DNA of 64,000 nt from Halocatena salina (lineage in GTDB: Archaea; Halobacteriota; Halobacteria; Halobacteriales; Haloarculaceae), in the NCBI RefSeq assembly GCF_023115355.1, contig NZ_CP096019.1, positions 930,001 to 994,000 of the forward strand, given 5' to 3'. This document shows, in pieces, positions 37,406-43,531 of this stretch. The translations under genes and the position numbers were made by a program. The stretch's first letter is position 1. Each line of letters starts with the position of its first letter. A model generated the notes under the pieces. It was not told the DNA's origin. It searched no databases and saw nothing but the letters and a program-made list of their open reading frames with translations.

Positions 37406-37675
37406 CTAGATCGACTGCATGTATTCAGTCGCCGTCCGTACTGCGTCGATAGTCAATTCTTCCCGGCAGATCGTCTCAGTGTCATTATTGGCTGTCACCG
37501 TCACTGTAACAGTCTCCGGCCAGTCCGCTCCACGACGAACGTCGATCGTCTTTCCCGTCTCCTCGTGCTCGTAGCGGGCAAAGACATCGTTGTCGTCGGT
37601 CTTGATCCGATCCCAGCCGTTCACATCTATCATATCGTATCTTCTTTCTGACGTATTTTTAATCATTGTGGACAT
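37406..37675 (-). CDS. Small hypothetical protein (up to 89 aa)
   Basis: The frame is 89 aa from ATG 37675, but the natural start may be the internal MIDVNGWDRIKTDDNDVFARY, 14 residues later. The protein is acidic and soluble, with a strand-rich middle (KTIDVRRGADWPETVTVTVTANNDTETICREELTI). No family is recognised. The gap above it (37676-37946) is AT-rich and should contain its promoter. The acidic composition and periodic hydrophobic residues support a real gene. Confidence 0.55.
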   Translation of the reverse strand: MSTMIKNTSERRYDMIDVNGWDRIKTDDNDVFARYEHEETGKTIDVRRGADWPETVTVTVTANNDTETICREELTIDAVRTATEYMQSI

Positions 37676-37946: not shown

Positions 37947-38501
37947 TCACTCAACCAGTTCTTCGAACCGTTCCCACGCCGCTCGCTCGCGGTCGCCGCC
38001 ACAGCGTTCGACCACGGATTCGGCTCGATCGATCTGCGCCCTGAGTTCGTCAGTGTCGTACTCGGGCACATCGAGTCGTGAGGCGGCAACGGTGGCCTCG
38101 ACGATGGCGTAATATCCCCGGTTCGTCGTCGGAACCACACGCTGTTCGATACCCGATTCGACGGGTGTGAGTGCCCACTCCTCCCAGTCCTCACCCGTTC
38201 CGATCGATTCGACGGCGACACGGACCCATGCGTCAGCGCTATCGAGGATCGGCGACGCTTCTTCGCGGATCGAACACGCTGCCTCGACGAAATCAACGGG
38301 ATCGCGGGTGAACTGGACGTATCCTTCGCCGCGCTCGTGGAAGTTACGACGCGTGCGCGTGCGTCCCCACGTTCGGGCAGTGATCACCTCGCCAGCGAAC
38401 AGTCCAAGCACGGCGACGTTCCACCGATCGTTCGGTCCCAGCGTCGTGACGATCGACTCGGTGACACCCGACAGTTCGAGGGGCCATCCATCCCCAGTCA
38501 C
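37947..38501 (-). CDS. DUF447 protein (flavin-reductase-like split barrel)
   Basis: The 184 aa protein matches archaeal DUF447: ESIVTTLGPNDRWNVAVLGLF, VITARTWGRTRTRRNFHERGEGYVQFTRDPVDFVEAA, and a C-terminal acidic helical part (YDTDELRAQIDRAESVVERCGGDRERAAWERFEEL). Crystal structures of the family show a split-barrel, FMN-binding fold related to flavoredoxin. The start ATG at 38501 overlaps the CitG-like stop (ATGA). It is the last gene of the four-gene cofD operon. Its reaction is unknown. Confidence 0.85.
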   Translation of the reverse strand: MTGDGWPLELSGVTESIVTTLGPNDRWNVAVLGLFAGEVITARTWGRTRTRRNFHERGEGYVQFTRDPVDFVEAACSIREEASPILDSADAWVRVAVESIGTGEDWEEWALTPVESGIEQRVVPTTNRGYYAIVEATVAASRLDVPEYDTDELRAQIDRAESVVERCGGDRERAAWERFEELVE

Positions 38502-39340
38502 ACCGACACCCCCCGTTCGAGCGCGAGAAACAGTGCGGCCGCAGTGATGTCGGCGGTCGTTCCGGGATTGATTCCCTGCTGAACGAGCTCCGCCGCAAGA
38601 TGCTCGGGTGCGATCGTCCCGTCGAGCGCCGCCTGTGCGCGCTCGACCACCTCGGTTGCCGTCTCACGGTCGTGTCGTTTCACGATGAACGTGTCCGGCT
38701 CTGCAGCGAGCAGTCGGAGATACGCGTCTGCAGCCCGATCAGCAACGGGACCGTCATCTGCTTCGATCCAGTCGGCGGCACGAAACGAACGCGGAAACGC
38801 TTCCGTCCACTCTCGGGCGACGCCGTCGACGTCCGTGCTCAGCTCCATTACGTCGAACAGCGTGAGACCGCGCTCTCGCAGCACCGACTCGGCGCGGGCC
38901 CCGCGCCGGACATCGAGTGCGTCGAGCTCCGACGGCGGATCACCAACACCTACGTCCACGTGTTCGAACGCCCGATAGAAATCACAAGCATCCTCGACAG
39001 TGGTAGCGCGAACGATCTCCTCGACCGTGTCCGAAGCAAGGGCGGTCTCGGGATCCACGCTCGCGGCTCGGACGAGCGGAACGAGCAGCAACAGCGCCCC
39101 GAACTGAGTGTTTCCGCCCTTCTGTTCGGCCATACCCACGACGCCGCGCTCGAAGGCACGACCGACCGCAGCACCCTGTTGTGCCAACAACAGCCCCCGC
39201 GTGCTTCCGACGGCACCAGCCATGAAATGCTCGAACCGGAGGTCGTCGTACTCGTGGCGACGATCCACGTTGCCGGGCTTTGGCGTTCCAGACACTTCGA
39301 GTAACAGCGCCAACTGGGCGTTCTGTGCTGGTGATCTCAC
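38498..39340 (-). CDS. Triphosphoribosyl-dephospho-CoA synthase-like protein (CitG/MdcB family)
   Basis: The 280 aa protein uses a GTG at 39340 that overlaps the upstream stop by 4 bases. The longer frame upstream is in the neighbouring gene. [43 protein letters not shown] is the characteristic start of the CitG family, which joins dephospho-CoA to ATP-derived ribose to build a prosthetic group. Haloarchaea have no citrate or malonate lyase here for which such a group would be made, so a different nucleotide-sugar role is likely. AEQKGGNTQFGALLLLVPL is the second motif. Confidence 0.87.
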   Translation of the reverse strand: MRSPAQNAQLALLLEVSGTPKPGNVDRRHEYDDLRFEHFMAGAVGSTRGLLLAQQGAAVGRAFERGVVGMAEQKGGNTQFGALLLLVPLVRAASVDPETALASDTVEEIVRATTVEDACDFYRAFEHVDVGVGDPPSELDALDVRRGARAESVLRERGLTLFDVMELSTDVDGVAREWTEAFPRSFRAADWIEADDGPVADRAADAYLRLLAAEPDTFIVKRHDRETATEVVERAQAALDGTIAPEHLAAELVQQGINPGTTADITAAALFLALERGVSV

Positions 39341-40113
39341 GCATCGGCCCTCCGATCGATACCGAACCATTCTACTGTCGCATCGTAGACACGAGAGAGC
39401 ACGCGCGGATCGTCGCTCGGTCTGCCGACGCTTACCGCGTCCGCGCCGTAGTCGAAATACTCCCGTGCCGTCTCCCGGTCGCGGACACCGTTGTTCGCGA
39501 TGAGGAACGCATCGCTGTGTGCAGCCACCTCCTCGATCACCGGCTCCGAGTCCATCGCATCGATGTGTAGGATATCCGCCCCCGCTTGGCTCGCTCGTCT
39601 CGCTGTTTCGGGGAGGTCGACGCCCGGAACCTCAGCGCGCATTTTCACGCTCGTCGTTGCGCCCGTCTCACTCACACCGCGGACGTACGCACAGAGCCTA
39701 TCGAGATCGGCCAACAGCGTTTCACCGGCACCTGCCGTACACATTTCGTCCTGTCTGCAATGGGCGTTGATCTCGACGATCGCGTCGTGCTCATGGCAGA
39801 CAGCAGCCGCATTCTGGAGTGGTGTGAGTGAGCTACTCCGGACGTTGAACCCGGCGGTGATCGGTAACTCTGACAGTTCGGACAGTTCCGTATCGATGAA
39901 GGCGAGCGGATCAGTGGGCAGAAACTCCTCTCGGTCGCGCGCTGTGAGTGCCCGAGCGGCGTCACGGGTGGGTCGGTCGAGCGCGATTCCACCCAGAAAC
40001 GCACAGCCGGCGTACGGGGCAGCCTGCCGTGCCCAGGCCGCATCCGACGCACCGCTCAGACTCGCCACCGCAATCCGGGGGGCGAACGCCGCGGGAGCCG
40101 ATCGACCCATCAC
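39337..40113 (-). CDS. Dihydrouridine-synthase-like TIM-barrel protein (MJ0144-like)
   Basis: The 258 aa protein has the barrel pattern of a FMN-binding Dus-like enzyme: [112 protein letters not shown]. The residues match the family's conserved Asn-Cys-Arg-Gln block, with Cys-109-like HCRQDEMC. It is shorter than real tRNA Dus enzymes (they carry a helical tRNA-binding domain), so another substrate is likely. It starts at ATG 40113, overlapping cofD by 4 bases. Confidence 0.8.
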
Positions 40114-41150
40114 TGATCACCGTCCGTCTCGGGCTGGGTGGCGCTGGGCGGTGCCGTGTGTTCGCTCAGTTCGAGCGCATCGCGGACCGCGCGGGCGACC
40201 CGCGCCGCGTCGGCGTCGGTGTCGAGCGTCGTGTCGGTTCGCACCACTGGCCGGTCAAGCGCGGTCAGATCCTCGGAATCGAGCACGAACGCATCCACGA
40301 AGGGGTAGGCCTCGGCGACGCCAGCGGTGCTAGCTTCATAGCCCATTGCGCGCATGAGCTTGGCCGCCGGGCCGGAAAAGACCTGATCACCGATGAACGG
40401 TGAGACTGCGACGACCGTCGTCTCGAACAGCGCTTGTTCGAATCGCTCCATCGACAGCATGGGCCCGATGCTCGTCACGGGGTTCGACGGACCGATCACG
40501 ACCGGTTGGGACAGCGCGTCGAGCACCTGCTCGGTCGGCTCGGCGTCGGCTGCACCCCGGAACTCCACCGTCTCAACCGGTGGCTCTCCGTCGTGGCCGA
40601 CCCAAAACGCCTGGAAATGCATCGGTCCGTCCGGCGTGTGAACGATCGTTGCCACCGGATCGTCGCTCATCGGCAACAGGGTCCGATCCAGACCGAACGC
40701 GTCGGCTAGCGTTTCCGTCGCCTCCGTCAGCGTCGCACCCTCATCCAGCAGGCTCGTCCGAGTCACGTGAACCGCACGGTCGCGGTCACCGATCTGCATG
40801 AACTCCCCCACGCCAGAAAACCGTCGCCACTGGGCGATCTCTCGGCCAGCAGTCTGTCGATCCTCGGGAAGGTAGCGCGGTTCGGAATCGAGTCCCGTTC
40901 GGTCAGCGATCCGGACGAGTTCGTCGTGAGTGATACTCGGATCGTCGTCGATCCCCCACCACGTTTTACGGTCAAGCACACCGCCGTCCAGAAAGAGTAC
41001 CGTATCAAGATCCGGCGAGATGAGGACACCACCGAGTTCGATGTCATCTCCCGTGTTCCCAACGACGACCGTTTCGGACGGGGGAAACACGGTATCGCTC
41101 CCGGCGAGCAGTTTCGGGGTGCCGGTTCCACCAGCGAGGAACGTCGTCAT
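40110..41150 (-). CDS. cofD: 2-phospho-L-lactate (or PEP) transferase of coenzyme F420 synthesis
   Basis: The 346 aa enzyme joins lactyl- or enolpyruvyl-diphosphoguanosine to the deazaflavin Fo, giving F420-0. Family motifs: [58 protein letters not shown] and [20 protein letters not shown]. It is the first gene of the four-gene operon, divergent from the HD phosphohydrolase at 41271, with about 120 bases between them. CofE and CofGH are not in the window. Confidence 0.95.
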
Positions 41151-41240
41151 ACTCCCAACCGGGAGATGTACGAAGATAAGTGCTTGTGGTTGTACTTGTA
41201 CACCCAGTTGCTACCACGGGCACAGTTTAGCACGGCCGCG

Positions 41241-41249
41241 TTTTTATCG
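41241..41249 (+). promoter_or_regulatory. Probable TATA box for the HD phosphohydrolase
   Basis: The bases tttttatcg lie about 26 bases before the GTG start at 41271. This supports GTG 41271 as a leaderless start, not the longer open frame that runs back across cofD. Confidence 0.4.
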
Positions 41250-41270
41250 TCCGAACGCAAAGTGCAGTCC

Positions 41271-42506
41271 GTGACGACGATCAAAGACAGTGTTCACGAC
41301 CATATCGAGGTCGAGGGCGTCGCCGCCGCCTTGCTCGATACGCCGCCGGTCCAACGGTTGCGTCGTGTCAGCCAACTCGGGACGGTCGATCTGGTGTATC
41401 CATCAGCCAACCACACCCGGTTCGAACACAGTCTCGGCGTGTACCACATCGCCAACCAAGCCCTCTCGAAGCTCGGGATCGGGGGACAGAACGCCGACCG
41501 GATTCGGGCGGCGGCGTTACTTCACGACGTGGGACACTGCCCGTACAGCCACAACATCGAATCTCTCGTCCACCGACATACGGGGAAATACCACGACGAG
41601 GTATACGAGCTGCTCGAATCGTCGTCGATCGCAGCGGTACTAGAACGTCACGACATCGACCCTGAGACCGTGGCGGCGCTCATCGCTGGAGAGGGACAGT
41701 ACGGACAGCTCGTTTCGGGTGAACTCGACGTTGATCGGATGGATTACCTCGTCCGGGATGCCCACCACACGGGCGTCCCCTACGGCACGATCGATCACGA
41801 GCGCTTCGTCAGAGAGCTACGATTCATCGATGGGGAACTCGTGCTCGACGCTGGCAACGTCCAGACGGCAGAAAGTCTGCTGCTCGCGCGGGCCCTGATG
41901 AACCGCGCAGTGTACAAACATCCGACCGTTCAGATCGGGCGAGCGATGCTCCAACGAGCGACCGAACGGCTGTTGGCAGCCGATGCCACCGATCCTGAGA
42001 CGCTGCGTCGGATGGACGACCACGATCTTCTTGCTGCGCTCCGTTCGTGTCCGGCGACGACGGAGTACGCCCGTCGCCTCGATACCCGAACGCTGTACAA
42101 ACGCGCAGTGTGGGCGGAACTCGATGACGTCCCCGACGAGCTACTCGAGATGAACCACGAGCGAACACGAGCGCTCGAAGCAGACGTAGCCGACGCGGCC
42201 GATGTCGATACCGAAGCCGTTATTTTCGATATTCCCGGAGAGCCGTCGATGCCCGAATCGACGAGCCGCGTCGTCGTCAACGGAGAGGTCAGGACGCTTG
42301 CGGGCGAATCGACGCTCGTCCGCGCGCTCATGGCAGCCCACCACGACCGATGGCGGTTTGGCGTGTACGCACCCGAAGCGTCGGTTGACGCCGTCGGCCG
42401 CGCGACCGAACAGGTGCTTGGACTGGAACTTGACGCGCTGGTCAACGACCTCCAGCTCGGTCGACCCGCAACGCTCGATGAGTTCACCGAGGAGGGACGA
42501 TCGTGA
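41271..42506 (+). CDS. HD-domain dNTP triphosphohydrolase-like protein
   Basis: The 411 aa protein starts at GTG 41271 (VTTIKDSVHDHIEVEG). Its HD core shows TRFEHSLGVYHIANQAL (His), ALLHDVGHCPYSHNIE (HD) and DVDRMDYLVRDAHHTGV (Asp), the order seen in dGTPase/SAMHD1-like enzymes. PPVQRLRRVSQLGTVDLVYPSANHTRFEH is the diagnostic lead-in. It likely hydrolyses dNTPs or other nucleotides. The stop overlaps the amidohydrolase start by 4 bases, so the two are coupled. Confidence 0.9.
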   Translation: MTTIKDSVHDHIEVEGVAAALLDTPPVQRLRRVSQLGTVDLVYPSANHTRFEHSLGVYHIANQALSKLGIGGQNADRIRAAALLHDVGHCPYSHNIESLVHRHTGKYHDEVYELLESSSIAAVLERHDIDPETVAALIAGEGQYGQLVSGELDVDRMDYLVRDAHHTGVPYGTIDHERFVRELRFIDGELVLDAGNVQTAESLLLARALMNRAVYKHPTVQIGRAMLQRATERLLAADATDPETLRRMDDHDLLAALRSCPATTEYARRLDTRTLYKRAVWAELDDVPDELLEMNHERTRALEADVADAADVDTEAVIFDIPGEPSMPESTSRVVVNGEVRTLAGESTLVRALMAAHHDRWRFGVYAPEASVDAVGRATEQVLGLELDALVNDLQLGRPATLDEFTEEGRS

Positions 42507-43531
42507 GCACGCAGCTCACCGGGACGATCCTCCGAGGCCGCGAGTTCGAGCCGGTCGAGGGACGGGTCGTCATCGACGACGGCCACATCACCGCCGTCGA
42601 GGAGACGACCACCGACTCGACGGACATCATCCTCCCGGCGTTCGTCAACGCCCACACCCACATCGGGGATTCGATCGCAAAGGAAGCCGGTGGGGGGCTG
42701 TCGCTGGACGAACTCGTTGCGCCGCCAGACGGTCTCAAACACCGCCTGCTCCGAGCGGCAAGCGACGAGGAGCTGACACACGCAATGGCCCGCTCGCTGC
42801 GGTTCATGCAACGAAGCGGCACCGGTGCGTTCCTCGAATTCCGTGAGGGCGGCACTGCGGGCGTGCAGGCGCTCGAACGCGCGCTGGCGGACGATGATCT
42901 CGATCTGACGGCCGTCGTGTTCGGCCGAGAGTCGATCGAAGCGATGGAGATAAGCGACGGGTTTGGGGCCAGCGGTGCGCGCGACAGCGATTTCGAAGCG
43001 GAGCGAAAAGCCACCCGCAACGCTGACAAACCGTTTGCCATCCACGCCGGCGAGCGCGATCCCGATGACATCGATCCCGCCTTCGATCTCGATCCGGAGC
43101 TGCTCGTCCACATGGTCCACGCCCAACCCGACCACTTCGAGCGACTCGAAGAAACTGAGACGCCGGTCGCCGTCTGTCCCCGGTCGAACCTCGTAACTGG
43201 CGTCGGGCTGCCACCCATCAGACAGCTCCTCGATCACACCACCGTCGCGCTCGGCACGGACAACGTCATGCTGAACAGCCCCTCGATGTTCCGGGAGATG
43301 GAGTTTGCCTGTAAGTTCGCGGACGTTACCGCCCGCGAGACGTTGCGGATGGCGACGGTCGCTGGTGCCGACGCCGTGGGACTGAACTGCGGTCTCATTG
43401 CGGAAGACAGAAACGCCCGACTGCTCGTACTCGACGGCGATTCGGACAACCTCGTAGGCGCACGCGACCCCGTGCGGGCGGTGGTCCGCCGGGCGGGCGT
43501 GAGCGATGTGAAACGCGTGGTGCTGACGTAG
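42503..43531 (+). CDS. Amidohydrolase-superfamily deaminase/hydrolase
   Basis: The 342 aa enzyme starts at GTG 42503, overlapping the HD gene. Metal ligands are complete: VNAHTHIGDS (HxH), FAIHAGERD (His), LLVHMVHAQ (His) and LGTDNVMLNSPS (Asp). A short beta-sandwich is formed by the N- and C-termini (TILRGREFEPVEGRVVIDDG and LLVLDGDSDNLVGARDP). These features match adenosine/guanine/cytosine deaminase and chlorohydrolase relatives. Together with the HD gene it suggests nucleotide clearance, but the substrate is unknown. Confidence 0.88.
   Translation: MSTQLTGTILRGREFEPVEGRVVIDDGHITAVEETTTDSTDIILPAFVNAHTHIGDSIAKEAGGGLSLDELVAPPDGLKHRLLRAASDEELTHAMARSLRFMQRSGTGAFLEFREGGTAGVQALERALADDDLDLTAVVFGRESIEAMEISDGFGASGARDSDFEAERKATRNADKPFAIHAGERDPDDIDPAFDLDPELLVHMVHAQPDHFERLEETETPVAVCPRSNLVTGVGLPPIRQLLDHTTVALGTDNVMLNSPSMFREMEFACKFADVTARETLRMATVAGADAVGLNCGLIAEDRNARLLVLDGDSDNLVGARDPVRAVVRRAGVSDVKRVVLT

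Follow-up and report, generated by a model that had tools for sequence, protein, structure and literature searches.

A haloarchaeal operon joining cofD to a CitG-DUF447 pair with a probable role in a methanopterin-type methyl branch

Four consecutive genes of Halocatena salina overlap one another by four bases, which raises the question of why cofD, a gene of F420 biosynthesis, is combined with a Dus-like barrel protein, a CitG-like transferase and DUF447. The genes are located in the window, i.e., the 64,000-nucleotide stretch of contig NZ_CP096019.1 that was analyzed (Table 1). We consider it probable that the operon is a fusion of an F420 module with a CitG-DUF447 module serving a methanopterin-type methyl carrier, which would be used by the F420-dependent reductase Mer and the split methionine synthase MetE. 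This reading is based on observed co-occurrence, co-loss, island membership and folds; the individual reactions are predictions. It contradicts the published view that methanopterin-specific enzymes are absent from haloarchaea, which are described as using tetrahydrofolate (Pfeiffer and Dyall-Smith, 2021; PMC8305020).

Table 1. Genes of the operon and their junctions (window coordinates).
Feature	Position	Strand	Details
cofD, 2-phospho-L-lactate transferase of F420 biosynthesis	40110..41150	(-)	346 aa; TIGR01819; 96/96 haloarchaea
Dus-like FMN TIM barrel	39337..40113	(-)	258 aa from GTG; candidate dehydro-F420-0 reductase
CitG-like putative ribosyl transferase, probable methanopterin-type branch	38498..39340	(-)	280 aa from GTG at 39340; PF01874, tree, bacterial islands
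DUF447, FMN-binding split-barrel protein	37947..38501	(-)	184 aa; PF04289/PF20766; AF2 model and PDB matches
cofD/Dus-like overlap, 4 bases, GTGA	40110..40113	(-)	
Dus-like/CitG overlap, 4 bases, GTGA	39337..39340	(-)	
CitG/DUF447 overlap, 4 bases, GTGA	38498..38501	(-)	

Operon layout and conservation of gene order

The four consecutive ORFs of the original prediction are all present on the minus strand, and the family matches agree with them. The predicted four-base overlaps were found at all three junctions, although the cofD/Dus-like and CitG/DUF447 junctions had been given as ATGA and in fact read GTGA, like the third. The Dus-like gene has an alternative start, an ATG at 40110 immediately after the first GTG, and the CitG ORF has an in-frame ATG at 39370. 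The overlaps suggest that the four products are made together. They cannot be attributed to chance, since the full order cofD–Dus-like–CitG–DUF447 recurs in 74 of 96 haloarchaeal genomes. This count comes from the survey of gene order that the original prediction had proposed. It covered 96 genomes of the window's order (at least 95% complete), in which DUF447, MptG, CitG, CofD and the Dus-like protein were searched and their positions compared. The order was taken as haloarchaeal, since Natrinema and Halobellus provide the nearest named matches to genes of the window's genome and the sample gave the same picture as the Haloferax control. The expectations of a conserved operon, linked to F420 through cofD, and of something undescribed in haloarchaea were both borne out.

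Across the 96 genomes searched, cofD and the Dus-like gene are adjacent in 92 of the 93 genomes carrying both, and the same figure, 92 of 93, applies to CitG and DUF447. The inner junction, Dus-like next to CitG, was found in 76 of 90 genomes. The two pairs occupy distant loci in several genomes (G153, G202, G207, G215, and G187), and on a Natrinema replicon both overlapping pairs are present with other genes in between. The operon therefore consists of two modules, usually but not always joined. CofD, which passes the TIGR01819 equivalog cut-off (365 vs 257 bits), was detected in all 96 genomes, including three (G008, G049, and G104) without CitG and DUF447. The same three are the ones without MptG, and the trio of MptG, CitG and DUF447 is present in the other 93.

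Regarding the surroundings of the operon, an 89-aa ORF without a Pfam or NCBIfam match (37406-37675) lies between an ABC ATPase gene and DUF447. The divergent neighbors of cofD (40767-43531) encode an HD-domain dGTPase-like protein, with a GTG start, overlapping an amidohydrolase that comes close to NF005552 (285 vs 294 bits).

The Dus-like barrel protein

The Dus-like protein matches PF01207 with 32 bits and is a divergent relative of the MJ0144 family, scoring below the TIGR00736 cut-off (126 vs 218.7 bits over 220 of 231 positions). Its AlphaFold2 model (pLDDT 91.7) matches DHOD B, DusB/DusC and DPD. Compared with DusB (VIA-align Z 23.5, rmsd 2.4 over 209 residues), C118 aligns with the cysteine of the GCP motif and K156/R158 with KIR; the N motif is kept. 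The protein ends where the barrel of DusB ends (the alignment stops near residue 243 of 306), in agreement with the predicted absence of the tRNA-binding helical domain. The FMN barrel fold, the catalytic-position Cys and the flavin-site Lys, Arg and Asn are thus common to this protein and to Dus enzymes, DHOD and DPD, whereas the Dus-like protein lacks the C-terminal tRNA-binding domain and has its own conserved AHC[RK]Q motif. With these flavin-site motifs retained and no tRNA-binding domain, it is probably an FMN barrel of the ene-reductase type, acting on a C=C bond of a small molecule.

The archaeal dehydro-F420-0 reductase was left unidentified and named CofX (Bashiri et al., 2019; PMC6450877). 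CofD links Fo with a lactyl or enolpyruvyl phosphate; in the proposed scheme, the C=C bond there would probably be reduced by the Dus-like FMN barrel. From its cofD linkage and its fold, the Dus-like protein may be tentatively put forward as CofX, an assignment that we regard as clearly less likely than not but that supplies a concrete candidate for an enzyme open since 2019 (PMC6450877). It is favored by the linkage to cofD and by the retention of the gene in the three trio-less genomes; it is weakened by the neighborhood of its homologues in methanogens and by its absence from three CofD-positive haloarchaea, all of which are trio-positive. The C-terminal nitroreductase domain of FbiB shares the proposed reaction, FMN-dependent reduction of dehydro-F420-0, but has an unrelated fold, and none of the 96 haloarchaea has a match over the cut-off. 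The same domain, considered as a stand-in in the three genomes without the Dus-like gene, was accordingly rejected.

The methanogen neighborhood suggests that the barrel could instead be part of the methanopterin branch and not of F420 biosynthesis, which we treat as a serious possibility although we do not expect it to prove right. In roughly twelve archaeal loci, the gene immediately upstream of CitG-DUF447 encodes a Dus homologue of ~377 residues, an arrangement seen in many methanogens. Both such proteins that were scanned are the methanogenesis marker 9 protein, in which the marker-9 domain (TIGR03277) comes after a TIGR00736 barrel, and the Dus-like protein of the window is homologous to its N-terminal domain. 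The order barrel-CitG-DUF447 is the same in the methanogen block, but there the barrel carries a Cys-rich marker-9 C-terminal domain and cofD is not adjacent. Several observations speak against this placement. The haloarchaeal gene remains beside cofD in the trio-less genomes, in line with its near-constant adjacency to cofD; it is missing from three trio-positive haloarchaea; and it has no match in Sulfolobus acidocaldarius or in the bacterial tetrahydromethanopterin (H4MPT) islands described below. In three methanogen loci, the marker-9 C-terminal domain contains the motifs CC..C and TCFG..WCC..KPC, judging by which it possibly holds an Fe-S cluster feeding FMN.

Genes lost together with the CitG-DUF447 pair

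The three trio-less genomes are also exactly those in which the Mer orthologue is absent (no match in G008 and G049, a distant paralogue in G104); one further genome with a partial Mer match was counted as Mer-positive. Split MetE is affected as well. No match to the MetE catalytic domain was obtained in G104, while G008 and G049 have a single diverged MetE2-like gene, with the MetE1 partner missing. The product of this gene shows 46-47% identity to the Halobellus protein, compared to ~70% in three trio-positive genomes checked. The MetE1-MetE2 pair was present in the three trio-positive genomes checked for it, including that of the window. In both G008 and G049 the lone MetE2-like gene is found beside A-type ATP synthase genes. 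CofD, the Dus-like protein, Mch and a FolP-type DHPS are kept in all three trio-less genomes.

The co-loss is defined by three genomes and two events: a tree of CofD and the Dus-like protein places G104 inside its genus and G008 and G049 elsewhere, and at least two independent losses must therefore be assumed. Under random absences and with phylogeny ignored, two families would share the same three absent genomes with a probability of 7e-6. A single deletion cannot explain the pattern, because CitG (968 kb), Mer (1960 kb) and MptG (2300 kb) are far apart in the window's own genome, where Mch is likewise unlinked (2190 kb). General streamlining is a possible cause, the three losers being small genomes; other genomes of 1.9-2.5 Mb keep everything. 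Two further candidates for the set were rejected, namely Mch, which is present in 96 of 96 genomes, and a second DHPS-like paralogue considered as the RFAP-condensing enzyme, which does not co-vary with the trio. According to the co-loss pattern, MptG, CitG, DUF447, Mer and split MetE belong together functionally, and the probable source of methyl groups for methionine synthesis in haloarchaea is thereby identified.

A plasmid of Halobellus limi (NZ_CP031312.1, 6182-11818) carries npdG followed by mer-DUF447-MptG-MetE1-MetE2 on one strand, and the Mer encoded there scores above the cut-off of the NCBIfam equivalog for methylene-H4MPT reductase (448 vs 276 bits). With an F420 reductase gene alongside, this run has the appearance of a portable operon for the methyl branch. 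When plasmids were searched with DUF447 by tblastn, only two haloarchaeal records were recovered directly, and profiles were required for the bacterial members.

Most halophilic archaea have no methionine synthase other than split MetE, for which methyl-THF or another methyl pterin has been predicted as the donor (Price et al., 2021; PMC7857596). Our data point to the latter. As suggested by co-loss and by the occurrence of the genes in one operon, the methyl form of the pterin would be made by F420-dependent Mer and passed to split MetE for methionine formation, with folate staying a separate carrier. The F420 and carrier modules may be fused because both meet at Mer, which requires F420. The operon thus points to a hidden second C1 route feeding methionine synthesis in haloarchaea. 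A fuller version, in which a second, methanopterin-like C1 carrier for methyl groups only exists besides folate and the operon holds both its CitG-type alpha-ribosyl transferase and CofX, in the form of the Dus-like protein, must be considered doubtful at present.

It has also to be asked whether the trio makes the sole C1 carrier of haloarchaea, with the "folate" enzymes, including Mch, acting on the modified pterin. The homology of Mch and Mer to H4MPT enzymes and the presence of the trio in 93 of 96 genomes are consistent with this, but three genomes live without the trio and yet keep Mch and FolP-FolC, which makes it unlikely. The retention of Mch in these genomes indicates that Mch itself does not depend on the methanopterin-type carrier.

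The MptG homologue HVO_2628 has been judged unlikely to be MptG and probably not to catalyze the RFAP reaction (PMC8305020), and the annotation of the whole archaeal class assumes folate only. MptG of the window's genome belongs to the TIGR00144 family (160 vs 113.5 bits). Haloarchaeal MptG falls below the NF040726 equivalog (189 vs 328 bits), as do the MptGs of the bacterial islands (135-200 bits).

CitG and DUF447 in bacterial H4MPT islands

Using the CitG of a Paraburkholderia plasmid as query, we recovered 79 bacterial loci, mostly from Burkholderiales, Methylococcales, Hyphomicrobiales and relatives. Within ~8 kb of CitG, Mch was found in 78, MptG in 71 and DUF447 in 36 of the 79 loci (the DUF447 calls were confirmed by Pfam on four), while CofD and the Dus-like protein were found in none, the search covering the islands only. 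As an example, an Aquabacterium plasmid island includes MptG, methylene-H4MPT dehydrogenase (mtdB), an ATP-grasp protein, mch, a glutamate ligase, CitG, dihydroneopterin aldolase, a flavoprotein, DUF6513 (DHPS-like), DUF447 and MfnB. The order mch-orf5-orf7 known from methanotrophs (PMC3615186) matches mch-ligase-CitG, and CitG is therefore probably orf7. The islands (mch-orf5-orf7, mptG, orf17, orf19-22; PMC3615186) thus share the CitG subfamily, DUF447 and MptG with haloarchaea, along with C1-transfer enzymes, but also hold fae, mtdB, a glutamate ligase, MfnB and a DHPS-like protein. Haloarchaea, on the other hand, have no such island, their CitG-DUF447 pair is usually fused to cofD-Dus-like, and the folate gene FolP-FolC is also present. 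A literature search, exclusive of the original descriptions of the methylotroph orf genes, revealed no published link between methanopterin and either CitG or DUF447; the bacterial link may already be recognized in those descriptions.

These islands bear on the central claim of the original prediction, according to which a ribosylated flavin or deazaflavin is modified or used by CitG and DUF447 within a single pathway linked to F420. The four-base overlaps, the order kept in 74 genomes and the FMN bound in solved structures of DUF447 relatives would fit such a pathway. It is already contradicted, and we regard it as very unlikely: CofD is kept where CitG and DUF447 have been lost, on which ground one F420 pathway for all four genes was rejected; the bacterial islands hold CitG and DUF447 without cofD; and the pair tracks MptG and Mer exactly. 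Among 14 control genomes, MptG and DUF447 had matches in M. jannaschii, H. volcanii, S. acidocaldarius and M. acetivorans, as did CitG, which was also matched in E. coli. CofD was over the cut-off in three of the 14, with S. acidocaldarius not among its matches, and thus CitG and DUF447 follow MptG with or without F420. From the islands and from the retention of CofD, it follows that the CitG-DUF447 half of the operon goes with methanopterin-type biosynthesis, represented by MptG, and not with F420.

The CitG-like protein matches PF01874 with 234 bits but scores far under the CitG, MdcB and NF002315 equivalogs (31.7, 29.7, and 37.9 vs 272, 282, and 280 bits). In a tree, it groups with the archaeal and bacterial island CitGs, and this group is split from E. 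coli CitG and annotated CitG/MdcB at 100/100; since the bacterial and the true CitG groups are separated by long branches, only this split was used and not the inner branch order. The original prediction of a CitG-like ribosyl transferase without its usual lyase was confirmed, no lyase or CitX neighbor being seen. That the protein is a genuine CitG or MdcB, supplying citrate lyase or malonate decarboxylase with its prosthetic group, as its Pfam match might suggest, can practically be dismissed in view of these scores, the separate group and the missing neighbors.

True CitG consumes ATP, frees adenine and forms an alpha-ribosyl linkage bearing a 5-triphosphate, and an alpha-ribosyl 5-phosphate sits on the ribitol of methanopterin. 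We know of no enzyme assigned to the alpha-ribosyl step of methanopterin. The protein of the window shares its Pfam family with citrate lyase CitG and malonate decarboxylase MdcB (EC 2.4.2.52), so ATP-dependent alpha-ribosyl transfer is likely; it differs from them in its separate, well-supported group and in having no lyase or carrier protein partner.

DUF447 matches both of its Pfam domains (PF04289/PF20766; N 82 and C 68 bits). Its AF2 model is an FMN split barrel, with the FMN-bound structures 2PTF, 2NR4 and 2IML as best PDB matches, which agrees with the flavin-binding barrel originally predicted; it is an FMN protein, probably acting in the methanopterin-type branch. The conserved islands and the co-loss suggest that a methanopterin-type pterin would be built by CitG and DUF447 together with MptG, whose gene is unlinked. 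In such a route, MptG would couple p-aminobenzoate to PRPP, giving an aryl-ribose, on which DUF447 would probably perform a reductive step. By analogy with the action of true CitG on dephospho-CoA, CitG would probably move alpha-ribosyl(tri)phosphate from ATP to a ribitol hydroxyl with release of adenine, and the 5-triphosphate would also be suited to forming a phosphodiester with hydroxyglutarate in a subsequent step, much as CitX uses it with ACP. DUF447 and this CitG subfamily, both orphan families, thereby gain a pathway that can be tested with deletion mutants of Haloferax volcanii.

The phylum sample also contained 30 loci from other archaea, and in 28 of them CitG and DUF447 are neighbors. 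Three archaeal families have cofD on the strand of CitG-DUF447, at ~3-5 kb upstream, with DUF763 in between in two of them and a calcineurin-like phosphoesterase in one of these two.
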